From: an uncultured Pseudomonadota bacterium
GTDB taxonomy: Bacteria; Pseudomonadota; Gammaproteobacteria; Steroidobacterales; Steroidobacteraceae
DNA length: 40,577 nucleotides
Assembly (NCBI GenBank): GCA_903908265.1
Contig: CAIVRI010000092.1
Span: 1 to 40,577 of the forward strand
Reading direction: 5' to 3'
Below, piece after piece: positions 1,163 to 12,150 of the stretch; the stretch's first letter is position 1; each line of letters starts with the position of its first letter. A program made the position numbers and the translations under genes. The notes beneath the pieces were generated by a model. That model had not been told where the DNA came from. It saw only the letters and a list, made by a program, of their open reading frames with translations, and did not search any database.

Positions 1163-1942
1163 TCAGGTGCGCAAATAACTCGCGCCGTTGACATCGAGGA
1201 TCGCGCCGGTCATCGCGGCGGGTGCATCCAGCGCACACCACACCGCTGCTTGCGCCAGTTCCTCCGGTTGCGTGATCCGGCCGAGCGGATGCTGCGCGAG
1301 GATTTCCGCGCCGTTCGGTCCGTTGACGTGGCCGACGGCCATGTCGGTGGCAACCCAACCGGGGGCGAGACTGTAGGCATAGATCGCGAGGGGCGCGAGC
1401 GCCTTGGCAAGCGACTGGCTGAGCGCATTGAGGCCCGCTTTGGAGGCGCCATAGGCGGGCGCTTCGGGCTCGCCGCGAAAGGCGCCACGCGAGGAGATCT
1501 GCACCAGGCGACCACGACCGAAGGCGCTGTCGCGCGGTGCGCGCTGGGCCATGGCGCTGGCCGCATGGCGCGCCAGTTGTGCCGGGCCGATCAGATTGGC
1601 GCCGAGAGTCCGTTGCCAGGCGTCCGTCCACGCGGTCGCCTCCGTGGTGAGCGGTGGGTGGTCTTGAAAGAGACCGGCATTGTTGATCAGCACATCGATG
1701 CACGGATGCGCAGCGCTGACCGAGGCCCACAACTGATCCACCGCCACGGGGTCTTCCAGTGCCGCTTGATGCAGGGTGTGGCCGTGGCCGGGCAAGCGCT
1801 CGCGCACCGCGGCGGCGAGGGCGGCGTTGTGGTGATAGTGCAGGGCGATGACCACGCCGCGCGCCGCCAGTTGTAGTGCGATGACGGCGCCGATGCCGCG
1901 CGAGGCGCCGGTTACCAAGGCAGTCAGTGGAGGGTGTGGCAT
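1163..1942 (-). CDS. Short-chain dehydrogenase/reductase (SDR)
   Basis: A 259-residue classical SDR, the usual family length. The nucleotide-binding TGASRGIG motif lies at residues 11-18, the NNAG motif at 87-90, and the catalytic tetrad is N115, S151, Y164 and K168 (YGASK). The ATG at 1940-1942 is preferred because the Rossmann motif then starts close to the N-terminus; a GTG at 1978 would add twelve residues and lie inside the inverted repeat. It resembles 3-oxoacyl-ACP reductase-like SDRs, but the family is too broad to name a substrate. Next to a TmpA/TmpB-like pair, one speculative role is redox interconversion of a hydroxylated phosphonate or betaine intermediate. Confidence 0.9.
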   Translation of the reverse strand: MPHPPLTALVTGASRGIGAVIALQLAARGVVIALHYHHNAALAAAVRERLPGHGHTLHQAALEDPVAVDQLWASVSAAHPCIDVLINNAGLFQDHPPLTTEATAWTDAWQRTLGANLIGPAQLARHAASAMAQRAPRDSAFGRGRLVQISSRGAFRGEPEAPAYGASKAGLNALSQSLAKALAPLAIYAYSLAPGWVATDMAVGHVNGPNGAEILAQHPLGRITQPEELAQAAVWCALDAPAAMTGAILDVNGASYLRT

Positions 1943-1967
1943 GCAAGGCGCTCTGGTGGAAAGGCCA

Positions 1968-1998
1968 GAGCCTAGCACTGTGGTCGCGTGCTAGGCTC
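1968..1998. promoter_or_regulatory. Perfect inverted repeat in the divergent promoter gap (candidate operator)
   Basis: The arms are GAGCCTAGCAC (1968-1978) and GTGCTAGGCTC (1988-1998), perfectly complementary over 11 bp with a 9-bp spacer. The repeat lies in the 88-bp gap between the divergently transcribed SDR and transporter genes. No T-run follows it on either strand, so a regulator-binding site is more likely than a terminator. No regulator gene is visible nearby. Confidence 0.55.
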
Positions 1999-2030: not shown

Positions 2031-3365
2031 ATGACGACGGGTTCGACCGCGGCGCGTGGGCTACTGCCACGACAAACGCTGGTGCTGCTGCTGCTGTTCG
2101 GCGGCTATGCCGCCTGCTATTTCGGGCGCGCGAATTTCTCGGTCTCGATGCCGTTGTTGGTCGACGAACTGGCGCGGCATGGCGTGGCGCCGGAGCGGGC
2201 GGTGGTGCAACTCGGCACGGTCTACTCGATGGGCGTGCTGGCCTATGCGCTCGGCAAGCTGTGCTTGGGGGGGCTGGGTGATTGGTGGGGCGGACGGCGC
2301 TCGTTTCTGATTGCGCTGGGCGGTTCGGCGCTGTTTACGTTTTTGTTTTCGACCGGCGCCGGCCTGCCGCTGTTTACGCTTGCCTGGGTGGGCAATCGCT
2401 TGACGCAGTCGATCGGCTGGGCGGGCTTGCTCAAAGTGACCGGGCGCTGGTTCGACTTTCGTGGGCATGGCACGGTGGTCGCGCTGCTCTCGGTCAGTTA
2501 CCTCGTCGGCGATGCCTTGGCGCGGGAGTCGATGGGGTTGCTGTTGGCGCACGGCGCGAGTTGGATGGACTTGTCGCGCTTTGCCGCGGCAGTGCTGGGC
2601 GGATTTTTTTTACTGAACCTGGTGTTTTTGCGTGAGTCGCGCGTGGACTGTGGCTACGCGGCCCCGCAGGTCAATCCGATCAATCTCTATGGGCACCACG
2701 TAACCGATGCGCCGCCGCTGACGGTGCGGGGCTTGTTGCTGCCCTTGCTGGCCAGTCGCTCGTTTCGGCTGGTGTGTGTCTTGTCCTTCGGCTGTACGGT
2801 GGTGCGCGAGGCCTTTGGGGTTTGGCTGCCGGTCTTTCTTAAAGAGGCGGCCGGTTATGACGCGGCCCATGCGGCGCGTTTTTCGGGCGTGTTCCCGGCG
2901 GTGGGGGCGGTGTCGGTATTGATGGCGGGTTGGGCGGGCGATCGCCTCGGCGTGAATGGGCGACCAACCTTGTTGTTCGTGGGCCTATGGGCTACGGCCG
3001 TGGCCTTGGGTGCGCTCTTTATTTTTGCGCCGGCGGTCGTTGGGCGCGCCACGACGGTGGCGTTGATTGGGCTGGTGGCGTTTTGTTTGCTGGGACCGTA
3101 CTCCTATCTGGGCGGCGCTTTTGCGCTGGACTTTGGCGGCGGTCGGGGCGGCGCGATCGCCTCGGGTTTGATCGATGGGGTGGGTTACCTCGGTGGGGCA
3201 CTGGCGGGCATCGGGGTGGCGCAGTTGTCGGTCGCATACGGCTGGCGCGGGGTGTTTGCGGGTTTGAGTCTGGTGGCCGTGCTGTCGGCGCTGGCCGCAG
3301 GTTGGCTTTACACTGCACAGCGACAGGCCCATCGCCGGGCGCGTGAGGAGTTGTATGTCGAGTGA
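2031..3365 (+). CDS. MFS transporter of the organophosphate:phosphate antiporter (GlpT/UhpT-like) type
   Basis: A 444-residue, about 12-helix major facilitator. The N-terminal helix has the YAACYFGRANFSVSMP pattern seen in GlpT/UhpC-type OPA antiporters, followed by GKLCLGGLGDWWGGRR, the loop 2-3 MFS signature. OPA carriers exchange organic phosphates for inorganic phosphate, so a phosphonate substrate in this cassette is a reasonable inference. The stop codon overlaps the next gene by 11 bp, which suggests translational coupling. No strong Shine-Dalgarno is visible before the ATG at 2031. The family is fairly secure; the substrate is inferred from context alone. Confidence 0.85.
   Translation: MTTGSTAARGLLPRQTLVLLLLFGGYAACYFGRANFSVSMPLLVDELARHGVAPERAVVQLGTVYSMGVLAYALGKLCLGGLGDWWGGRRSFLIALGGSALFTFLFSTGAGLPLFTLAWVGNRLTQSIGWAGLLKVTGRWFDFRGHGTVVALLSVSYLVGDALARESMGLLLAHGASWMDLSRFAAAVLGGFFLLNLVFLRESRVDCGYAAPQVNPINLYGHHVTDAPPLTVRGLLLPLLASRSFRLVCVLSFGCTVVREAFGVWLPVFLKEAAGYDAAHAARFSGVFPAVGAVSVLMAGWAGDRLGVNGRPTLLFVGLWATAVALGALFIFAPAVVGRATTVALIGLVAFCLLGPYSYLGGAFALDFGGGRGGAIASGLIDGVGYLGGALAGIGVAQLSVAYGWRGVFAGLSLVAVLSALAAGWLYTAQRQAHRRAREELYVE
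3345..3350 (+). promoter_or_regulatory. Shine-Dalgarno that decides the TmpA-like start
   Basis: GAGGAG lies 4 bases before the ATG at 3355, inside the end of the transporter gene. It favours that ATG over an in-frame GTG at 3343 that would begin at the ribosome-binding site itself. Confidence 0.6.
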
Positions 3366-4473
3366 ACCGAGCCCGTGGGTGGAAGCACACCCCGACCATG
3401 TACGGATCGATTGGGGTCAGGGGGTCGCAGGCGCATTTGCGGCGCTCTGGCTTGCCGACAATCGTGCCGAAGATCGGCACGCCAATGGACAACGGTTGAT
3501 TGATGTCCTGGATCTGCCGGAGTCCGTGCGTATCCAGACCGCCACCGTGGTGGACGGCATGCTGCACGTGACCTTCGCAGGGACGGTAGCCCCCTTGGTA
3601 CGGCCGCTCGCATGGTTGCGTGCGACCTTGGGGCCGCTCACGGCCGCGCGGCCGGAACTGGATCGCGCGGCCTGGCTGGACGGCGCGCGGCGCGTGGCGG
3701 CGCGAGATTTTGCCTGGCGTACGTACGCGGCCGTGCGTGCGGATGCGGCGCTGCGCGGCGTGTGGTTGCGGCGCTTGGCGCGCGATGGCATCGCCTTTCT
3801 GTCGGAGGTGCCGTGTGTGGAGGGCATGATCGTCGAGGTCGGCAGCCTGCTGGGCGCCGTGGCGCACACCAATTATGGGGTGTTGTTTGATGTGCGCGCA
3901 GAGCCGGTGCCGGAGAACTTGGCGTATACCGATTGGGGCCTTGGGCTGCATACCGACAATCCGTATCGCGATCCGGTACCGGGCTTTCAGGCGCTGCATG
4001 TCTTGGTCGCGTCCCCAGAGGGCGGTGACAGTCTATTTGCGGATGGCCTCGCGTTGGCCGCGCACTTGCGCACCATCGATGCGGCATCCTTTGCGTGTTT
4101 GACGCGCACCCCGGTGCCCTTTCATTACCGTTCGGCCGCGGCGGATCTGTGCTCAGAGAAGCCGCTCATCGCACTCGACGTCGCCGGGGACGTACGCGCG
4201 GTGCATTACAACAACCGTTCGATCGCGCCACTGCGCTTGCAAGGTGAGGCGGCACAAGACTTCTATCGCGCCTATCGGGCCTTTGCGCGGTTGTTGCGCG
4301 AACCGCGCTTCCAATTGCGGCTGCGCCTGCAGGCGGGCGAGCTGGTGGTGTTTGATAACCGACGCATCTTGCACGGACGCACCGCCTTCGCCAGTCAACA
4401 CCATCCCCGTCATCTACAGGGCTGCTACCTGACCCGCGACAGTGTGCTCAGCAATGCGGCTCTTTTACCCTGA
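3355..4473 (+). CDS. tmpA: Fe(II)/2-oxoglutarate oxygenase of the gamma-butyrobetaine hydroxylase family, TmpA-like
   Basis: A 372-residue protein with the two-domain layout of gamma-butyrobetaine hydroxylase: a DUF971-type N-terminal domain (about 10-95, with LWLADNR at 31-37) and a TauD-type catalytic domain. The iron ligands are visible as H199-T-D201 (GLHTDNPYRD) and H340 (RRILHGR), with RHLQGCYLT near the C-terminus as in this family. The Cys ligands that bind zinc in the N-terminal domain of gamma-butyrobetaine hydroxylase are absent after LWLADN. TmpA hydroxylates C1 of 2-(trimethylammonio)ethylphosphonate. The call rests on the immediately following PhnZ/TmpB-type gene and the OPA transporter upstream. 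The alternative is a true gamma-butyrobetaine hydroxylase making carnitine; the pairing with an HD oxygenase argues against that. Confidence 0.8.
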   Translation: MSSEPSPWVEAHPDHVRIDWGQGVAGAFAALWLADNRAEDRHANGQRLIDVLDLPESVRIQTATVVDGMLHVTFAGTVAPLVRPLAWLRATLGPLTAARPELDRAAWLDGARRVAARDFAWRTYAAVRADAALRGVWLRRLARDGIAFLSEVPCVEGMIVEVGSLLGAVAHTNYGVLFDVRAEPVPENLAYTDWGLGLHTDNPYRDPVPGFQALHVLVASPEGGDSLFADGLALAAHLRTIDAASFACLTRTPVPFHYRSAAADLCSEKPLIALDVAGDVRAVHYNNRSIAPLRLQGEAAQDFYRAYRAFARLLREPRFQLRLRLQAGELVVFDNRRILHGRTAFASQHHPRHLQGCYLTRDSVLSNAALLP

Positions 4474-4481
4474 GGTTTTTG

Positions 4482-5036
4482 ATGCACCCCGTACCGCCGA
4501 TTGTGCAGCAGATCGAAGCGCTGTATGCGTCCCGCGCGCTCGGCAATTATTTTGGTGAGACGATCACGCAACTCGAGCACGGACTGCAGGCCGCTTATTT
4601 TGCGCAAGCGGGCGGTGCGTCGGAGGCGGTCGTGATTGCCGCCTTGCTGCATGACGTGGGGCATCTGGTCGTGGACGTGCCCGCGGACTTGGCGGACTGG
4701 ACGCACGACGCGCAGCATGAGCAGACCGGTGCCGATTGGTTGGCGCACTATTTTGGTCCGCAGGTCACGGAGCCGGTGCGCTTGCATGTGGCAGCCAAGC
4801 GGTACTTGTGTGCGACCGATGCAGGTTACTACGCACGCTTGTCGGCAGCCTCCGTGCATACCCTGCAACTGCAGGGGGGGGCGATGACACCGGCCGAGGT
4901 GGCTGCATTTGAGGCCAATCCCTTCCACCAAGCCGCCGTGCTGCTGCGCTTGTGTGACGAGCAGGGCAAAGTGCTGGGCTTTGCGGCGCCGGCGCTGTCG
5001 ACCTATCGGGCGCGCATCGCGGCGCTGTTGCGCTGA
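4482..5036 (+). CDS. tmpB: HD-domain mixed-valent di-iron oxygenase, PhnZ/TmpB-like C-P bond-cleaving enzyme
   Basis: A 184-residue single HD domain, the length of PhnZ/TmpB. Every expected landmark is present at PhnZ-like spacing: YFGE lid (Y23, E26), H33, HD pair H57-D58, H79, H102, K106 (LHVAAKRY) and D159 (RLCDEQ). Family members oxidise a 1-hydroxy-phosphonate with O2, cleaving the C-P bond to release phosphate and a carboxylate; TmpB yields glycine betaine. The start is the ATG at 4482, with TGAGG at 4471-4475 overlapping the stop of the upstream oxygenase. The gap of 8 bp implies one operon. Whether the substrate carries a trimethylammonium group (TmpB) or a free amine (PhnZ) is inferred from the betaine-hydroxylase-like partner. 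Confidence 0.85.
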   Translation: MHPVPPIVQQIEALYASRALGNYFGETITQLEHGLQAAYFAQAGGASEAVVIAALLHDVGHLVVDVPADLADWTHDAQHEQTGADWLAHYFGPQVTEPVRLHVAAKRYLCATDAGYYARLSAASVHTLQLQGGAMTPAEVAAFEANPFHQAAVLLRLCDEQGKVLGFAAPALSTYRARIAALLR

Positions 5037-6089
5037 TCAACCCTCGGCAGTGGCGCCGCGTCGGCCGGTGCCGCGGCGCAGCGTCGCGCCGGCGGCAGCA
5101 CCCGAGGCGCGGTCCATATGGCCGGCCAGTTGGGCGCGGGCCCCGACCGTGAGGGGCCCTAGAGCGGCTTCGATGCTGGTGGCGGTCGGTTTTGCGCCCG
5201 GCACGTACGCATCCATTGCACGGCGCATCGCGGCGAGATGTTCGGGCGAGGTGCCGCAGCAACCGCCGACGACGCGGGCGCCGGCATCAAGCGCCATTTG
5301 CACGTAGAGACCCATCAATTCCGGGGTGCCGTTATAACGGATGGCGCCGTCCACATACTGCGGGATGCCGCAGTTGGCTTTGGCGACCAGCACGGTGCCC
5401 GGATCGGCGGCCGTTGCGAGATTCAGGATCGAGGCGATCAGTTCCGACGGACCCACCCCGCAATTACTGCCGCAACCGGCCAACTGGTGCGTGCGCGCGA
5501 CGTCGGCAAGTTCGGCCGGCGTGAGTGACATCATGGTGCGGCCATTGGTGTCGAAAGACAGCGTACTGACGACCGGCAGTCCGGTGCTGGCCGCCGCTGC
5601 AATCGCCGCTTCGACCTCTTCGCGCGAGGACATGGTCTCGATCCACAACACATCGACGCCACCGGCCTGCAGGGCGAGCGCTTGTTCCGTGAAGGCCGCC
5701 TTTGCATCGGCAATGGAGAGGGGCCCCAGGGGTTCGAGGATCTCCCCGGTTGGGCCCATGCTGCCGCCGACGAGGACGGTGCGGGGGGACTGATCGGCGA
5801 CTGCACGGGCCAGGTGCGTGGCCGCGACATTCAGTTCGTGCACGCGCGCTTCGGCGCCATGCAGTTTGAGGCGATAGCGGGTACCGCCGAAGGTGTTGGT
5901 CAGAATAATGTCGGCGCCGGCATCGACAAAACGTTGGTGCAGCAGGCGGATGCGATCGGGGTGTGCCAGATTCCAGAGTTCTGGCGCATCGCCGGACAGG
6001 AGGCCCATCTCGAACAGGTTGCTGCCGGTGGCGCCATCCGCCAGCAGGTAGGTGTTGCGTTGCAACAGGTCGGCGAAGGCATTGCGCAT
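5037..6089 (-). CDS. Betaine-homocysteine S-methyltransferase-like (homocysteine methyltransferase domain)
   Basis: A 350-residue homocysteine S-methyltransferase-fold (TIM barrel) protein. The zinc-thiolate ligands are C210 (GCGSNCGVG) and C277/C278 (VVGGCCGTSPEH); the N-terminal ADGATGSNLFEMGL motif is also typical. The last 40 residues are Gly/Ala/Arg-rich and probably disordered. The start at 6089 has a GGAG Shine-Dalgarno. Betaine-homocysteine methyltransferases transfer one methyl of glycine betaine to homocysteine, giving methionine and dimethylglycine. Glycine betaine is the predicted product of the neighbouring TmpA/TmpB pair, which favours this over S-methylmethionine- or cobalamin-linked relatives. 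It is convergent with tmpB and the two stop codons abut as TGATCA. Confidence 0.82.
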   Translation of the reverse strand: MRNAFADLLQRNTYLLADGATGSNLFEMGLLSGDAPELWNLAHPDRIRLLHQRFVDAGADIILTNTFGGTRYRLKLHGAEARVHELNVAATHLARAVADQSPRTVLVGGSMGPTGEILEPLGPLSIADAKAAFTEQALALQAGGVDVLWIETMSSREEVEAAIAAAASTGLPVVSTLSFDTNGRTMMSLTPAELADVARTHQLAGCGSNCGVGPSELIASILNLATAADPGTVLVAKANCGIPQYVDGAIRYNGTPELMGLYVQMALDAGARVVGGCCGTSPEHLAAMRRAMDAYVPGAKPTATSIEAALGPLTVGARAQLAGHMDRASGAAAGATLRRGTGRRGATAEG

Positions 6090-6361: not shown

Positions 6362-8017
6362 TTATTTGCTCGGCGTGGGGCTTTGTGTGCTCCGGATGAA
6401 CGAGGCCACATCGCTATGGAATTGTTTCAAGATCGCTTCGTTCACATAGATCATGTGCCCGGCCTCGTAATAGCGATAGCTGATGTTCGCTTGCAGGGCG
6501 TTGGGAATGGGCAAGTGATGCATCTCAAAGATGCCTTGGTAATACGGCGTCGCCAAATCGTAATAGCCACCGGCCAACAAGATCTTCAGACCCGGATTGG
6601 ATTTCATCGCAAAGGCAAGATCCGGCATCACGTTGGTACCACCCCACTGCTCGGACGCGGGCGCCCCATTGGGCTGGTGGTGACGTAGATCCCAAGAGAA
6701 GCCGTCGGCGTAAATATTAACCTTGTAGGTTTCGTTCTCGCCGTACTGGAGGTCTTTGCGCAGGTATTGATTGATCGCCGTGGTGTAGGCGCTACTGATG
6801 GCATTGCTTTGCGGATCGTATTCGGCCGTTTCACTGAGCGGATTCAGATCCGGGCCTTTGTAGCGAGAATCCAAGCGTCCCAACGTGGTTTCTTCGTCCA
6901 ACGCCAGGGTTTTGGTAAAGGCGCCGCCGGAGACCCGTAAATCGGATTTCAACAGATAGGCCACCGGCAAGCCGGTGTACTCGTGCAGTTGCTGCGCCAC
7001 CGCCTGCTTTTTGGCGGGCGACAATTCGCTGCCTTGCAGCAGGGCACTGGCATAGTCGCCGAGAGCGAACTGGGCGACTTCGGTTAAGAACGGCTCCAGA
7101 GCGGCGGGCTGCTGCGGCAGCTTGTGGTGGTAATAGGCGGTCGCCGCATACGTCGGCAAGGCGATCGCGTAGGCCTGATCCACGCCGGGGTTCGTTTTCG
7201 GGCCATCCACGCTGTTATCAAAGCTGAGAATAGCCGACAGCAGGACGATGCCGTTCAGATCGATCGTGCCGAGGTTCGCCGCGATCACGGCACTGCGCGG
7301 GGTGCCATAGCTTTCACCGAACAGATACTTGGGCGAGTTCCAGCGATTGTATTTGGTCAGAAAACGGCTGATGAAGTGCTTGAAGGCCTGTGCGTCGCCG
7401 TCCATGCCCCAAAACGCCTTCTCTTTTTCTTTACCGAAAATGCGGCTGAAGCCAGCGCCGGGGGCATCGATGAACACCACGTCGCTGACGTCGAGGAGGC
7501 TGTAATCGTTATTGATCAGTCGATAGGGCGCCGCGCTGTCGTGTTGGGTGTCGGTGGTGACCACCCGCTTTGGGCCGAAGGAGCCCATATGCAGCCACAT
7601 GGTCGAGCTGCCGGGGCCGCCGTTGTAGAAGAAGGTGACCGGGCGCTGCTCGCTGGCGGCGCTCTTTTTGAAGTAGGCGGTATAGAACATCCGCGCGGTG
7701 GCCGGTTGCTCGTCGGTTTTGCTGGGCAGGTCGAGCCCTGCGGTGGGCAGCACGGCGCCGTCGAGGGTGAGCATGGCGTTCAGGGCGTCGGTCGAGCCGA
7801 CGGTGAGGGTGCCGGCTACGGCGTCATATTGGATGACTTGGCCGTTGACCGTGACCGCACCACTCGTGCGTGCATCCGGTGCCGCGGGCACGAAGGCCCC
7901 CGTCGTCTTGTGCGTCTCGGGCGCTTCGGTCTTGTCATCGGCGATCGCTGGCATGGGCTGCGCACTGAACGCCGCCAGCAGCAGGGTCAGAGGCCAATGG
8001 AGTGCGGGTCGGTTCAT
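6362..8017 (-). CDS. Secreted S10 family serine carboxypeptidase-like peptidase
   Basis: A 551-residue protein with a Sec signal peptide (hydrophobic stretch about 8-20, cleavage near AIA-D at 26-27). The S10 landmarks are all present: oxyanion loop YNGGPGSSTMW (131-141), nucleophile S236 in GESYG, catalytic D487 (GGYYDLATP) and H521 (EAGHMIY). S10 enzymes remove C-terminal residues from peptides and are active at acidic pH; bacterial members are usually periplasmic or secreted. The gene stands alone with about 270 bp before the methyltransferase gene and a long gap upstream, so it is probably monocistronic. The substrate cannot be inferred. Confidence 0.92.
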   Translation of the reverse strand: MNRPALHWPLTLLLAAFSAQPMPAIADDKTEAPETHKTTGAFVPAAPDARTSGAVTVNGQVIQYDAVAGTLTVGSTDALNAMLTLDGAVLPTAGLDLPSKTDEQPATARMFYTAYFKKSAASEQRPVTFFYNGGPGSSTMWLHMGSFGPKRVVTTDTQHDSAAPYRLINNDYSLLDVSDVVFIDAPGAGFSRIFGKEKEKAFWGMDGDAQAFKHFISRFLTKYNRWNSPKYLFGESYGTPRSAVIAANLGTIDLNGIVLLSAILSFDNSVDGPKTNPGVDQAYAIALPTYAATAYYHHKLPQQPAALEPFLTEVAQFALGDYASALLQGSELSPAKKQAVAQQLHEYTGLPVAYLLKSDLRVSGGAFTKTLALDEETTLGRLDSRYKGPDLNPLSETAEYDPQSNAISSAYTTAINQYLRKDLQYGENETYKVNIYADGFSWDLRHHQPNGAPASEQWGGTNVMPDLAFAMKSNPGLKILLAGGYYDLATPYYQGIFEMHHLPIPNALQANISYRYYEAGHMIYVNEAILKQFHSDVASFIRSTQSPTPSK

Positions 8018-8503
8018 GAGGGAGGCTTCCTACTAGGGCGCAAACGGGGGCAGACGGCACCGCAATCATTGTAGGGGGTGCTTGCGGCAATGGGGCAGTT
8101 GTTAGCGTTTTTTGCACGCGCACGGACGGTTACGCGCGGCCGAGTGCGCGCAGGTCGCGCGCGTGGGTTGCGCCTGGTACGTCCATGCGCCCCTCCTCGG
8201 CACGAACGCAGCCTGCACTGGGGGATGTCGACTGGCACCAAACCAATGCAGGTGGTGGGTGTTTGTCGGCAAGCGCGTACGGCTCGGTACGGCGATGACA
8301 CACGCCCGTGGTGCTATCAGGCGTGCTATCGGAGTGCTTGCGGCTGCCTGTGGCAGCGACCGGAATGGGTCGATGGCTTGTCCGGCCCCTGACGCACGCC
8401 GCGGTGCACTCGCTGTAGAGGCGGGTGGAATCGGCCCTGCGTTGGCATCGGGTCGCGCTCGGATTCGGCGCCGCCGCCGTCGACCGCCCGCACCCTCGCC
8501 GCT
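8018..8503. other. Intergenic stretch, no gene recognised
   Basis: Open frames occur on both strands, but their translations are Arg/Cys-rich and resemble no family. The stretch separates two minus-strand genes, so it should hold the promoter of the S10 peptidase gene; no convincing -35/-10 pair or hairpin terminator was seen. Confidence 0.5.
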
Positions 8504-9118
8504 CTAGATTTGCCGCAAGGATTGCAGCGCTTCTGTGCACAACTGCAAATGGCGTTCGGTCAGGCCGGCCCCACGGGCTGCATCGGTCACGCTTTCCAAC
8601 ATCAGTAGCGCCAGTTCGACCTGACTGCGCATACGCGTGTTCTCGTTTTTGAAAAATCGCACGAGTTGATCGCGCGGATCGTCGACAAGGCCCGCATCTA
8701 GCGCGGTGGGATCGACATGTTCGCGGAACAGTTGGTCAACCACCGCTTGGTGTTGCACCAAGTAGAGGGGATTGATTTCGGCGGCGCGGGTGCCGGCCGC
8801 AGCGCCCGCCGCGGCGAGTGCCTCGTCCGTCAGTCGACGAAATCCCATCGTCCAGTCGGAATATTCGCGCCGTGCAATCTGCCGTCGATGGAGCAGTTGC
8901 ACATCGGTGTTGCGCGGATCCACTTTGATGCGCCGCAGCAGTCGCTCCACGTCCTCTTCTTCGCCCTCCAGGGCCTGCAGGAAGGTCCCGTTTGCGTAAA
9001 AAAGCATACCGGTGACGGCATTGCCTGGATTATTGACGAGGCATTGGCGCAACAACGCCAGCAGGTCCTCTGCGGAGAGCGGGCTAGTGGCGCGGCTGAC
9101 ATAAGAGATGTGAATCAT
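8504..9118 (-). CDS. BLUF-domain blue-light sensor protein
   Basis: A 204-residue protein whose first ~95 residues form a BLUF (FAD-binding blue-light) domain. The key residues fall exactly at AppA-like spacing: Y6 (HISYVS), N30, Q48 (TFLQALEGE), W89 and M91 (DWTMGF). The tyrosine and glutamine carry out the light-driven hydrogen-bond switch. After the domain come about 105 residues with Ala/Glu-rich helical segments and no recognised output domain, so signalling probably occurs by protein-protein interaction. The ATG at 9118 is chosen because BLUF domains begin right at this motif; an upstream ATG would add nine non-conserved residues. No cyclase, EAL or transcription-factor partner lies adjacent. 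Confidence 0.93.
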   Translation of the reverse strand: MIHISYVSRATSPLSAEDLLALLRQCLVNNPGNAVTGMLFYANGTFLQALEGEEEDVERLLRRIKVDPRNTDVQLLHRRQIARREYSDWTMGFRRLTDEALAAAGAAAGTRAAEINPLYLVQHQAVVDQLFREHVDPTALDAGLVDDPRDQLVRFFKNENTRMRSQVELALLMLESVTDAARGAGLTERHLQLCTEALQSLRQI

Positions 9119-9679
9119 CGGGACATCACCACACGAAGAACCCAAACAGGATAGCCCAGTTTTCTGGCGAATCCCACGGGGATGCGGTGGGGATTTTTGG
9201 AGGCTGTATCGGCGGCCTGGCGGCCGGGGTGTTGGACATCGGGCGACCGCAGTGCCCGCTATGCAAGCGCGGCGGACCTGATTTGCGCTGCCTGATCCTG
9301 GCGGCTGTAACGTCGCAGTGTGGAACCGACGGTTGCATCGCTTTGCGCGCTGTCAGGCGGATTTTGCGCGCGGTCTACACCCCTCAAAAATCACGAGGAT
9401 CGCGTTCGGTGCGCGCTGGTGCGACCACGGTAATCCGGTGTTATTGCCACGGCATAGCGGGCCGGGGTCTCGGCGCTCTAGGCTTGCAGCCATTAACGAA
9501 CAGTACATCGCGCAGTGAACGCGCACTCTGTCAGGACCGGTGGCCACACGGGTTGATCAATCGGTGATCGCTCGGTCACCGAACCCCTGCGGTGTAGTCT
9601 CGATTCGTCTGGGCGAACGATTGCATGTGCGATGCGGCGTGGGTTTGTTTACCAGCGGCCTGCTGTCTGCGGTGCCGTC
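9119..9679. other. Intergenic stretch, no gene recognised
   Basis: Nothing with family resemblance was found on either strand. The open frames are short, rich in Cys and Arg and lack plausible ribosome-binding sites. It must contain the promoter of the BLUF gene; no clear motif could be assigned. Confidence 0.45.
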
Positions 9680-10126
9680 CTACGCGGAACGTGCGCCGCC
9701 GGTTCTGGCGGCCAATAGGGATGCCGGTAGGGTGCGCACGTCTGCTGGAGTGCATATCGGGAGGCCTTGGTATGGGATGACGCCAGTAAATCGTTGTCGC
9801 TGGTCGCGCATTTGCGCGTGACCCGCGCGCGCCAGTGCCAGAAACGGGTCGTCCTTTGGTGCACGGCAGAGGCGCCGTGTGGTGGTCCCGTGGACTGATT
9901 CGGCGAGTCGTGCGTACCAGCCAAAGAATGCCTGACGGTCGTGCAGGCGGAGATACCGATTGCATTTTTGACGCACGGTCGTCTGCGCGCGTTCGGTCAA
10001 GGTGTCGTTGGACACCCAGACGCGGGGCCTGATCAGTCGGCTGACGGCGCGGCCTGCGATCGACTGTGGTAGGAGCAATCGGCTGAGTAAAATATTCGTG
10101 TCCACTACGCCGCGCGTACTAGTCAT
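9680..10126 (-). pseudogene. PIN-domain toxin with two compensating frame shifts in its active site
   Basis: The open frame starts at 10126 and overlaps the antitoxin stop by 8 bp. It opens with VVDTNILLSRLLLPQ, typical of the PIN toxins of the TIGR00305 type (first catalytic Asp present), and continues with PKDDPFLALA, the conserved central acidic motif. After GHAQ the frame yields MRDQRQRFTGVIPYQG, unlike the family. The next frame over the same DNA (about 9777-9807) reads KCATSDNDLLAS, matching the expected IVTGDxDLL motif, after which the original frame resumes with the conserved IPYQGLPICTPADV. A pair of opposite one-base shifts has therefore replaced the conserved acidic GDxD motif. RNase activity is probably lost. 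Confidence 0.65.
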
Positions 10127-10397
10127 CCGAGTGCAGCAGCGCCGCCAGTTTGCTGGCCGTCCACCGGACTGCAGCGGCCTTTGCGCCAACGTGGTCACAA
10201 AATGACTGCAAATCATGCGCTGCGAGACCGGGCAGTCGGTCGTATTTTTGGGGTGCAATCAGGACGGCCTGATCTCGGGCGTGGCGGCCAATGACGATCG
10301 GGGCCCGTTGAACGGCGTCCAGTACCTCGGCAACCTGTTGTTTTGCATCGGTGGCAATGATGGAGCGCCGGTCGGTCTCTAGACGTGTGTAGGGCAT
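10119..10397 (-). CDS. Phd/YefM-family antitoxin
   Basis: A 92-residue protein with the Phd/YefM fold pattern: an N-terminal segment TDAKQQVAEVLDAVQRAPIVIGRH followed by AVLIAPQKYDRL, the usual DNA-binding and dimerisation half. The tail (about 60-92) would neutralise the toxin. It starts at the ATG at 10397, the first position that gives the family's usual short N-terminus. Its stop overlaps the toxin start (ATGACTAG), the classic coupled arrangement. Such antitoxins normally repress their own promoter, which would lie in the A/T-rich 10398-10440 segment. The partner toxin looks damaged, so this may be an antitoxin outliving its toxin. Confidence 0.8.
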   Translation of the reverse strand: MPYTRLETDRRSIIATDAKQQVAEVLDAVQRAPIVIGRHARDQAVLIAPQKYDRLPGLAAHDLQSFCDHVGAKAAAVRWTASKLAALLHSDD

Positions 10398-10559
10398 GAG
10401 AGCCACATGGTGCGAAATGGATATAAATGTACAAAATAGACGCTGCGTGGCGCGGACTGGCTCGTCAGGTCTGGTGGTGGGGCGGATCGCGTGCTGTTGG
10501 GTAGGACTAGGCTCGCCGCGTCCGATGGCCCATCCTAGGCGCCAAAGAGGGGTGTACAG

Positions 10560-10835
10560 ATGAGCGCCAGTGCAAGTGTGTGGACGGTGGGGGTCGAAAT
10601 CGCCGGCTGGGTGGGGGCCACCCTGATCTTGGCGTCTTACGGCTTGCTGAGCCTGCACCGGGTGCAAGCGACCTCGCCGCTGTACCAGTGGATGAATGCC
10701 ATCGGCGCGGTGGGCTTTGCGATCAACGGGGGCTGGAATCATGCCTACCCGTCAATGACGCTCAACATCATCTGGCTGGGGTTTGCGCTCTACGGCTTGA
10801 CGCGGGGTCGACGCGCGGCGCGCCGACCCCGTTGA
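10560..10835 (+). CDS. Small membrane protein of the CBU_0592 type
   Basis: A 91-residue protein with three predicted membrane helices (about 10-31, 44-60, 66-82). The pattern GWVGATLILASYGLLSLHRV, then SPLYQWMNAIGAVGFAIN and PSMTLNIIWLGFALYGL, matches the CBU_0592-like domain, which has no known function. An AAAGAGGGG Shine-Dalgarno lies at 10544-10552, well placed for the ATG at 10560. The C-terminus is a basic Arg-rich tail that should be cytoplasmic. It is convergent with the hydrolase gene, with one base between the two stop codons. Confidence 0.82.
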   Translation: MSASASVWTVGVEIAGWVGATLILASYGLLSLHRVQATSPLYQWMNAIGAVGFAINGGWNHAYPSMTLNIIWLGFALYGLTRGRRAARRPR

Positions 10836-10847
10836 CTCAAGGGGTCG
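10824..10847. terminator. Stem-loop carrying both convergent stop codons in its loop
   Basis: CGACCCC (10824-10830) pairs with GGGGTCG (10841-10847) around a 10-base loop. The loop holds the TGA of the CBU_0592 gene (10833-10835) and the complement of the hydrolase TGA (10837-10839). There is no T-run, so intrinsic termination is uncertain; a bidirectional 3'-end structure is the likely role. Confidence 0.35.
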
Positions 10848-12150
10848 CCGGTGCGGTCAGCAACTCCAAGCCGGTGGAGAAGCGGCGCTTGAAGCCTTTC
10901 CACAGGGTCACCGGCGCGGTGCCGGTGCTGGTCATGTCAAAGCGCGGTGCGAGCTCCGCAGGCCAGGTGGTGTCATCGATGCGCGGCACCAACCCATCCA
11001 GGTAAGCCGCGCGCGTCTCGTCGCCCTTCACATAGCGATCGAGGAAGGCGGTGATCATGTGTGTGTTGATCGCGATGATCTTGTCCTTGCGCCACAGCGG
11101 GTCCTCGAACCAACTGAAGTTCCACAGATCGCTCGTCATCTCCGGCGGCGCGGGATCCAAGCCGATGCCGTGGCCGCCGCCGAGGAAGGTCAACAGATAC
11201 CGTGGGGCATGCACCGCGTGTTCGAAGAAATCGTGCGCGCCGGTGCCGTAGTTGACGGTCAGATCATGATCGCCGGCGATCAGCAGTAAGGGCGCCTTGA
11301 TGCCCTCGATGCCGTGATCACCCCAGACGTGGAGCGTGCCGCCGCCGGCGGGGGCCAAGGCCACGACCGCTTTGAGATGCGGCACCACCAGCGAGGCGGC
11401 CAGTGGATGGCCGGCAGCGTACGGCAGCATCACGCCACCGACCACTAAGTTCGCAGGACCGGCCGGATCCAGTGCGGCACCGGCGGCCGTCAGTACGCCG
11501 TAGCCGCCCATCGAGTAACCGACGAGCGCGACGCGGGTCGGGTCGATCAGCCCCTCGGTATCGAGGCTGTGGCTGAGCGTGCGCGCCACGAAGGCGATAT
11601 CGAGGGGACGGCGCAGCAGGGGACCGGCGAAGGTGCTGCGATTGCCGATCATCGGGTCGACATGGCGAATCGCGGCGACCACGTAGCCTTTGGAGGCCAG
11701 ATTTTCGGTCAGCCACGACAAGGCCACGGTGACGTTGGAGTAGCCATGCGAGACGATCACGAGGGGATGACGACCGGCGACGGCAGGGGCGCCGCGGACG
11801 GCCAGGCCCGGCACCGTGAAATGCGCCGGTGGGGCGGGCTCTTCGGACACTAACTCATCCGCATAGTTCTCGGCCTGGGCGCCGGCAGCCGGATGCGCGG
11901 GGTACCAAATATCCACCACGATATGCCGATCGTGTTTGGGTACGACGCCCGCGGCGTCTGCGGCGAGCACGTCGTACTGGTCCGGGTCGACCAGTTCGAT
12001 GGTGCGCACGCCGACGCGATCCGGGCCCAGGGCAGCCAGTTCCGGCGCATCAATCGGCGGAATGCTCGGCGGCGCGGCGGCCCACGCGGTAGCGGCGACA
12101 AACAAGCCGGCCCACAGAGCGAGCAGCGGGCGGTGGTGGCTGTGCAACAT
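10837..12150 (-). CDS. Secreted alpha/beta hydrolase (PAF-acetylhydrolase/dienelactone-hydrolase-like)
   Basis: A 437-residue protein with a signal peptide (hydrophobic about 8-22, cleavage after AWA near 24). The alpha/beta-hydrolase triad is visible: nucleophile S213 in GYSMGGYG, an acid at D294/D296 (IAGDHDL) and H327 (GGGHGIG). HGYSN at 135-139 probably contributes the oxyanion hole. The layout, with a long N-terminal strand-rich part containing DIWYP and SHGY, resembles bacterial platelet-activating-factor acetylhydrolase-like and chlorophyllase-like esterases. The ATG at 12150 is chosen because it leads straight into the signal peptide; a start at 12201 would add an Arg-rich leader. No operon partner is visible. 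The substrate is unknown. Confidence 0.88.
   Translation of the reverse strand: MLHSHHRPLLALWAGLFVAATAWAAAPPSIPPIDAPELAALGPDRVGVRTIELVDPDQYDVLAADAAGVVPKHDRHIVVDIWYPAHPAAGAQAENYADELVSEEPAPPAHFTVPGLAVRGAPAVAGRHPLVIVSHGYSNVTVALSWLTENLASKGYVVAAIRHVDPMIGNRSTFAGPLLRRPLDIAFVARTLSHSLDTEGLIDPTRVALVGYSMGGYGVLTAAGAALDPAGPANLVVGGVMLPYAAGHPLAASLVVPHLKAVVALAPAGGGTLHVWGDHGIEGIKAPLLLIAGDHDLTVNYGTGAHDFFEHAVHAPRYLLTFLGGGHGIGLDPAPPEMTSDLWNFSWFEDPLWRKDKIIAINTHMITAFLDRYVKGDETRAAYLDGLVPRIDDTTWPAELAPRFDMTSTGTAPVTLWKGFKRRFSTGLELLTAPATP

Follow-up and report, generated by a model that had tools for sequence, protein, structure and literature searches.

The closest described relatives of the genes considered here are those for the oxidative breakdown of 2-(trimethylammonio)ethylphosphonate (TMAEP) in L. 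caerulea, where the operon is described as two genes, tmpA and tmpB (PMC10574752). In TmpA, N187, N287 and R288 contact the phosphonate and shared aromatic residues serve the amine (PMC9296572), and HD-domain di-iron oxygenases such as its partner carry an H...HD...H...H...D signature with a YxxE lid motif (PMC8177086). A second relevant system is the split methionine synthase MtgC/D/E, of which MtgE is described as a homologue of S. meliloti 'Bmt' (PMC12478193). Here we compare with these systems a locus at positions 2031 to 6089 of contig CAIVRI010000092.1 (G000:C92), the whole 40,577 bases of which form the window that we analysed, from the 3.4-Mb draft genome (174 contigs) of an uncultured member of the Steroidobacteraceae. 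Its first three genes represent a new branch of the TmpA/TmpB pathway, one that carries a transporter, and, judging from sequence comparison, a conserved and mobile unit. We consider it likely that they form an operon that acts on a quaternary-amine phosphonate, spreads horizontally and was inserted beside a resident mtgE gene, and that methyl groups of the resulting betaine could pass to folate or homocysteine.

The reading frames of all four genes named in the initial annotation were confirmed at this place. On the forward strand, a transporter gene of the OPA family (MFS; 2031..3365), recognized by profile matches, invariant arginines and conserved gene order, overlaps by 11 bp, as had been proposed, the gene of a TmpA-clade Fe(II)/2-oxoglutarate dioxygenase (3355..4473), assigned from profiles, residues, tree and structure matches; ATG at 3355 is its likelier start, GTG at 3343 the alternative. 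The PhnZ/TmpB-type oxygenase announced 8 bp further on is likewise there, with all metal and lid residues: the gene of this TmpB-side HD-domain di-iron oxygenase (4482..5036, forward; profiles, motif residues and tree) starts at ATG 4482, 8 bp past the TmpA stop, or alternatively at TTG 4479, and its product holds both YxxE and H...HD...H...H...D. The convergent neighbour resembling a betaine–homocysteine methyltransferase (BHMT) is present on the reverse strand (5037..6089), its stop codon abutting that of the HD gene with a gap of zero; the product scores 447.7 bits against NF005718 (betaine–homocysteine methyltransferase), over the cut-off of 338. Chance is excluded as an explanation of the three-gene arrangement, because a sequence comparison with solved structures puts TmpA nearest to the dioxygenase (6npb, E 1.9e-67, 36–39% identity) and TmpB nearest to the HD protein (6npa, E 2.6e-38), and because the order recurs in 15 of the best 80 loci of one contig scan, a neighbourhood set that is no census.

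In an alignment of 137 dioxygenase rows, we compared 13 metal, 2-oxoglutarate, amine-cage and phosphonate positions with L. caerulea TmpA, the amine-cage positions being those that form the cage in human BBOX. All 13 are identical in the window protein, including the equivalents of N187, N287 and R288, and the Fe ligands H199, D201 and H340 and the 2-oxoglutarate arginine R352 are conserved. Every one of the 114 rows paired with an HD gene (105 distinct sequences) has arginine at R288, and in all 113 paired loci besides the window the HD gene lies on the same strand no more than 300 bp away; N287 is replaced in 16 of the 114. Because the R288 arginine by itself also occurs in 8 of the 21 unpaired non-reference rows, the discriminating feature is its combination with the first asparagine, which a single one of these 21 rows possesses (L063).

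The tree agrees with this division. In a quick maximum-likelihood reconstruction from 69 rows chosen among the 137, the HD-paired rows and characterised TmpA form a single group (SH-aLRT, the Shimodaira–Hasegawa-like approximate likelihood ratio test, 96), which includes L063 and leaves the unpaired rows resembling gamma-butyrobetaine hydroxylase (GBBH) outside; the latter were assigned by model score only, those scanned all being under cut-off, and some rows in the tree have long branches. The phylogenetic placement thus puts the window dioxygenase on the TmpA side and not among the GBBH-like rows, in a tree from which characterised bacterial GBBHs are absent. Inside the group, the 21 OPA-linked rows make up one deep clade with support 100, L040 being basal, and in all 21 the OPA gene stands beside TmpA. 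On these sequence features, the window dioxygenase is assigned as a TmpA-clade homologue, below the equivalog level of NCBI. Another TmpA homologue of the set, L007 (G190:C4:51834-52907), is interrupted by a single in-frame TGA, whereas the HD frame next to it is open.

The dioxygenase could instead be a GBBH for carnitine synthesis with an unrelated hydrolase next to it. It has the same fold and matches the GBBH model TIGR02409 at 277 bits (cut-off 414.75); its AlphaFold model (mean predicted local distance difference test score 89.5) finds TmpA 6npb as the top Foldseek match, and the structure Z scores tie (36.9 for TmpA, 36.7 for GBBH), so the fold cannot tell the two apart. Nor does the TmpA model NF049936 prove anything by its score alone, since the unpaired rows L006, L017 and L022 reach 346, 342 and 363 bits with it. 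However, the window protein scores higher with the TmpA model (332 bits) than with the GBBH model, the reverse of the GBBH-like rows L006, L009, L010 and L014, and the HD pairing and the complete di-iron and YxxE motif also speak against this idea. We rejected a GBBH identity on the residue combination and the tree, and regard this explanation as very improbable.

For the HD protein, Y23, E26, H33, H57, D58, H79, H102 and D159 are invariant in our alignment (A2). In a tree of 66 rows chosen from 131, it groups with the other OPA-linked HD proteins on the TmpB side, PhnZ standing apart at the end of a long branch; no clustering in another clade appeared among these rows, which include neither inositol oxygenase nor Gimesia PhnZ. 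The order of the two oxygenase genes is not universal: the HD gene precedes TmpA in L061, L064, L070 and L089, from Microthrix-like and Acidimicrobiales/Acidimicrobiaceae bins.

Several observations weigh against equating the window enzymes with TmpA and TmpB and against TMAEP as their substrate. Both equivalog cut-offs are missed, the dioxygenase reaching 332.1 bits with its best model, NF049936 (cut-off 400), and the HD protein 180.9 bits with the TmpB model NF049941 (cut-off 300); the latter protein also stays under the cut-off of TIGR03276 (202.4 bits, cut-off 214.6). With NF049936, the related dioxygenase of L025 is under as well (345 bits), and those of L012, L043 and L056 are over (572, 429 and 555 bits). 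The deep branches of the HD tree are weak, L040 falls outside its OPA group, and L170 and L178, which have no TmpA match, fall among the paired rows. Furthermore, the window sequences sit on a deep separate branch, the other tmpAB loci among the best 80 have no OPA match, and one of these, L043 (Kitasatospora), has instead a nearby gene weakly resembling a 2-aminoethylphosphonate-binding protein (58.6 bits, cut-off 310), together with a GntR-type regulator that matches PhnF/HutC weakly and under cut-off. The missed equivalog cut-offs, the separate branch and these neighbourhoods would suit a different quaternary or methylated aminophosphonate (of longer chain, N-dimethyl or an ester), but the amine cage and phosphonate residues equal those of TmpA at 13 of 13 positions, and we think another substrate unlikely. 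That TMAEP is the substrate is an inference, and so are the direction in which transport runs, the way in which it is coupled and, as discussed below, the passage of methyl groups from betaine to methionine.

The transporter belongs clearly to its family while staying under every curated cut-off: it matches Pfam MFS_1 (E 1.1e-21), SLC37A4 (E 2.7e-18) and TIGR00881 (128 bits, E 3.9e-37, cut-off 408). Two of its arginines, R33 and R259, are the same in every one of 23 rows, and we take them to be the counterparts of GlpT R45 and R269, presumably phosphate-binding. In the neighbourhood set, 8 loci of which duplicate cassette DNA of the relatives treated below, the HD gene adjoins TmpA in 79 of 80 loci, and the 15 with an OPA gene beside TmpA are L025 to L038 (14 loci) and L040; L039 is cut at TmpA. 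The initial annotation had added the transporter to the cassette and called for a survey of the co-occurrence of the four genes. The addition is upheld by the fixed OPA partner in 21 of 21 rows of the clade; as to co-occurrence, the OPA–TmpA–HD order stands as a recurrent fixed branch, and the methyltransferase does not travel with it. We propose from its sequence and linkage that the OPA protein imports TMAEP. The phosphonate symporters and antiporters in section 2.2 of a recent review (AepP, a sodium symporter, GltT/GltP) include no OPA protein (PMC10574752), and searches for TmpA, TmpB or TMAEP, which did not cover the text of the original TmpA/TmpB description, brought up no paper on such a transporter.

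A theme of methylated aminophosphonates is supported by L040, from a bin titled Bryobacterales (Acidobacteriota), where genes for a TIGR03364 flavin adenine dinucleotide (FAD) enzyme (415.6 bits, cut-off 285.1) and PhnX (TIGR01422, 330.7 bits, cut-off 220) lie directly before OPA, TmpA and TmpB in one overlapping row (6660-11607), which looks like a single operon for aminoethylphosphonates that differ in methylation. PbfD1, an N-methyl-aminoethylphosphonate oxidase, is annotated in the TIGR03364 family (PMC10590968). At L035, another OPA-linked locus, genes for a PstS-like protein (under cut-off) and for a porin lie upstream. In a first survey of the class, a TmpA-like match (1e-40) was found in 14 of 369 genomes, the source genome included. 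Within the genus set, which comprises this genome and 14 relatives, PhnJ was found in 0 of 15 genomes and PhnX over cut-off in one (G370); PhnA and PalA were not searched.

The limits of the unit become visible when genus genomes are compared. Between G372 and G370 there is a single match of 3,023 bp at 84% identity that covers just the three genes, located at L035 and L037 (8640-11650), and nothing else in the two loci, flanks included, matches. At the protein level the two genomes share 87% identity in TmpA, 88% in the HD protein and 93% in the OPA protein, against 67% in the BHMT-like protein; the G372 version of the latter shares 94% identity with that of G381. We read the shared segment as a probable horizontal transfer between otherwise distant species. 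A TmpA-like gene is present in 14 of the 15 genomes and was not found in G381 (99% complete), and in G381, G372 and G371 the short-chain dehydrogenase/reductase (SDR) and BHMT-like genes are directly adjacent, leaving an empty site. In the window, the SDR-family oxidoreductase gene (1163..1978, reverse; Pfam adh_short_C2) is the outer chromosomal flank of the insertion and lies outside the cassette, whose direction is opposite to that of both flanks, most simply because it was inserted between mtgE/bmt and the SDR gene.

The order and orientations SDR–OPA–TmpA–HD–BHMT-like are the same in all nine genomes in which these genes are linked, with the SDR match about 55–265 bp from the OPA match in each. 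The BHMT-like gene is next to the HD gene in four of them (the window, G375, G382 and G373) and 2 to 11 kb off in the other five; in G374, a CusA/CzcA-type metal efflux gene lies between the tmpB-like and mtgE-like genes (L025:11645-17393), with two further frames. In G370, G371, G372, G376 and G379, the cassette and the BHMT-like gene are on separate contigs or at least about 42 kb apart. When TmpA, HD and OPA sequences from 16 genomes are concatenated, the resulting tree separates the nine linked cassettes from the others at a single branch (100/99), and one event would therefore be enough to account for the linkage. The count alone does not distinguish gain from loss, and the MtgE gene tree, taken as a species tree, lacks the resolution to put the lineages in order, the linked group needing three changes on it.

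The BHMT-like gene has a distribution of its own. All 15 genus genomes carry it, G376 in two pieces at contig ends, and none of the 15 has MetH over cut-off (controls matched in 11 of 14, 7 over cut-off) or a match to the MetE catalytic domain (controls matched in 10 of 14). The MetH model instead matches separate proteins in the genus: a homocysteine module, which is the window gene, a pterin module and a cobalamin module. Among 40 relatives, all 20 with a BHMT-like gene are without MetH (the gene of G389 has a stop inside the match), and of the 20 without it, 17 have MetH, over cut-off in 15 and in pieces in 2 (in two frames in G386, cut by a contig end in G393). Neither gene was found in G383 (83% complete), G388 (74% complete) and G402. 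A similar complementarity of MetH and MtgBCD has been reported for marine bacteria (PMC12478193). From its profiles and this distribution, the window methyltransferase is most likely the homocysteine subunit (MtgE/Bmt) of a split methionine synthase, and it looks like a flanking core gene and ordinary chromosomal neighbour outside the unit, given the empty sites, the shared segment without the gene and its presence throughout the genus, the TmpA-less genome included.

The same evidence bears on the four-gene pathway of the initial annotation, in which a betaine–homocysteine methyltransferase would turn the betaine released by TmpB directly into methionine on the spot. Direct adjacency, the NF005718 score over cut-off and the order kept in nine linked genomes speak for it, as does the P. 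inhibens Bmt, which is reported to use betaine itself for methionine formation in vitro (PMC12366255). Yet the gene occurs in every genus genome, one of which has no TmpA match, three sites are empty, the shared unit lacks it, and 5 of the 14 cassette-bearing genus genomes have it elsewhere; the SDR gene on the other flank is linked at least as tightly, the methyltransferase gene faces the operon, and the S. meliloti-type homologue is described as lacking residues required for betaine binding (PMC12478193). A direct local conversion is therefore improbable in our view. Empty sites, unit boundaries and distribution led us to reject a four-gene cassette, and the methyltransferase had to be removed from its membership. 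What survives of the suggested link from betaine to methionine is a plausible genome-wide one through MtgBCDE genes.

The MttB family is over cut-off in all 15 genus genomes, and its matches number 4 to 10 in each (some of them fragments), 8 in the source genome. On another of its contigs (G000:C80:30561-40472; L150, L162), mtgB-, mtgD-, metF-, DUF1638-, mtgC- and gbdR-like genes are clustered within about 10 kb. The MttB-family gene there reaches 789 bits with Pfam and stays under the cut-off of the NCBIfam trimethylamine model; the MtgD-like protein is over the cut-off of PRK07535, and the MtgC-like and GbdR-like proteins score 205 bits (cut-off 370) and 395 bits (cut-off 480). In the mechanism that we favour, the OPA transporter would import TMAEP, the TmpA-like dioxygenase would hydroxylate it at C1 with 2-oxoglutarate and O2, and the TmpB-like HD oxygenase would cleave the C–P bond to yield phosphate and glycine betaine. 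The betaine would join the general cell pool, which in this genus is probably demethylated by MttB/MtgB-type enzymes onto an MtgC-like corrinoid protein, and the corrinoid-bound methyl group could then pass to folate through an MtgD-like protein or to homocysteine through MtgE, the product of the neighbouring gene, and so on to methionine.

Upstream of the operon, an inverted repeat, AGCCTAGCAC-N9-GTGCTAGGCT, lies between the SDR and OPA genes (1968..1997, without strand), presumably two facing promoter-like (extended -10) elements. Facing TGNTAGGCT half-sites were seen by eye in eight of the nine linked genomes; their spacing varies between genomes, which suggests facing promoters, a divergent pair suiting them better than an operator. 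Among 10 genomes, the palindrome has a single copy in each of G000, G375 and G382, always at this site, and its reversed control has a single copy in each of G369 and G375; with no shared regulon seen across the 10, we rejected it as a regulon operator. The sequence TGCTAGNCT occurs twice in the window against 0.47 expected, and as many copies appear in 7 of 100 shuffles. A simple two-repeat Pho-box score was applied to 26 upstream stretches, with some genomes contributing more than one. No convincing box upstream of the OPA gene and no consistent place emerged, the shuffle p being at most 0.03 in 3 of the 26 (L155, L166 and L035, the last two from one genome).

A speculative extension, which we rate as rather unlikely, would make the OPA protein a TMAEP/phosphate antiporter and the first transporter dedicated to a quaternary-amine phosphonate, in an operon that buys betaine with phosphate. 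If so, the one phosphate released per TMAEP by TmpB would make the exchange self-sustaining and phosphorus-neutral, and the operon would supply glycine betaine (as methyl groups, nitrogen and osmolyte) to the MttB/MtgBCDE methyl economy and would not be a phosphate-starvation system. This reading would fit three indirect indications: the failure to find a convincing Pho box in the stretches scored, the 4 to 10 MttB-family matches per genome and the kept mtgE neighbourhood.

Elsewhere in the window, a gene for a protein with a BLUF blue-light sensor domain (8504-9145, reverse) has no evident tie to its neighbours, and two overlapping small frames (9680-10742, reverse) resemble by eye a putative pair of antitoxin and PIN-domain toxin.

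With the OPA antiporters GlpT, UhpT and SLC37A4, its transporter shares the family match and two invariant arginines, which we presume from GlpT to bind phosphate, but it falls below curated cut-offs and is genetically linked to phosphonate oxygenases; the conserved unit offers a candidate TMAEP transporter and a compact test system. It resembles L. caerulea TmpA/TmpB (6npb, 6npa; PMC10574752) in its tandem oxygenase genes, the 13 shared positions and the side of the tree, and differs in its separate deep branch, its overlapping OPA gene and its modest identity to 6npb. PhnY*/PhnZ and Gimesia PhnY/PhnZ share the chemistry of hydroxylation followed by di-iron C–P cleavage, but the first enzyme of the window belongs to the GBBH/TmpA group and its HD protein to the TmpB side as judged against PhnZ, Gimesia PhnZ being outside that comparison. 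The FAD-enzyme and PhnX operons for N-methyl-aminoethylphosphonate (PMC10590968) are echoed in L040, where both genes directly precede OPA–TmpA–TmpB; the FAD enzymes tested there did not accept the trimethyl compound as a substrate. The MtgBCDE system of Ruegeria pomeroyi and Phaeobacter inhibens (PMC12478193), whose main text does not contain the word phosphonate, has in common with the window genome the stand-alone homocysteine, pterin and cobalamin modules, an MttB-family gene, a GbdR-like regulator and a genome in which neither MetH nor MetE was found. Here, in contrast, the host is apparently a gammaproteobacterial genus, and mtgE lies beside tmpAB. The locus shows that pathway-like adjacency can be an insertion beside a core gene, and at the genome level it ties phosphonate breakdown to the recently described corrinoid system of betaine and methionine metabolism.

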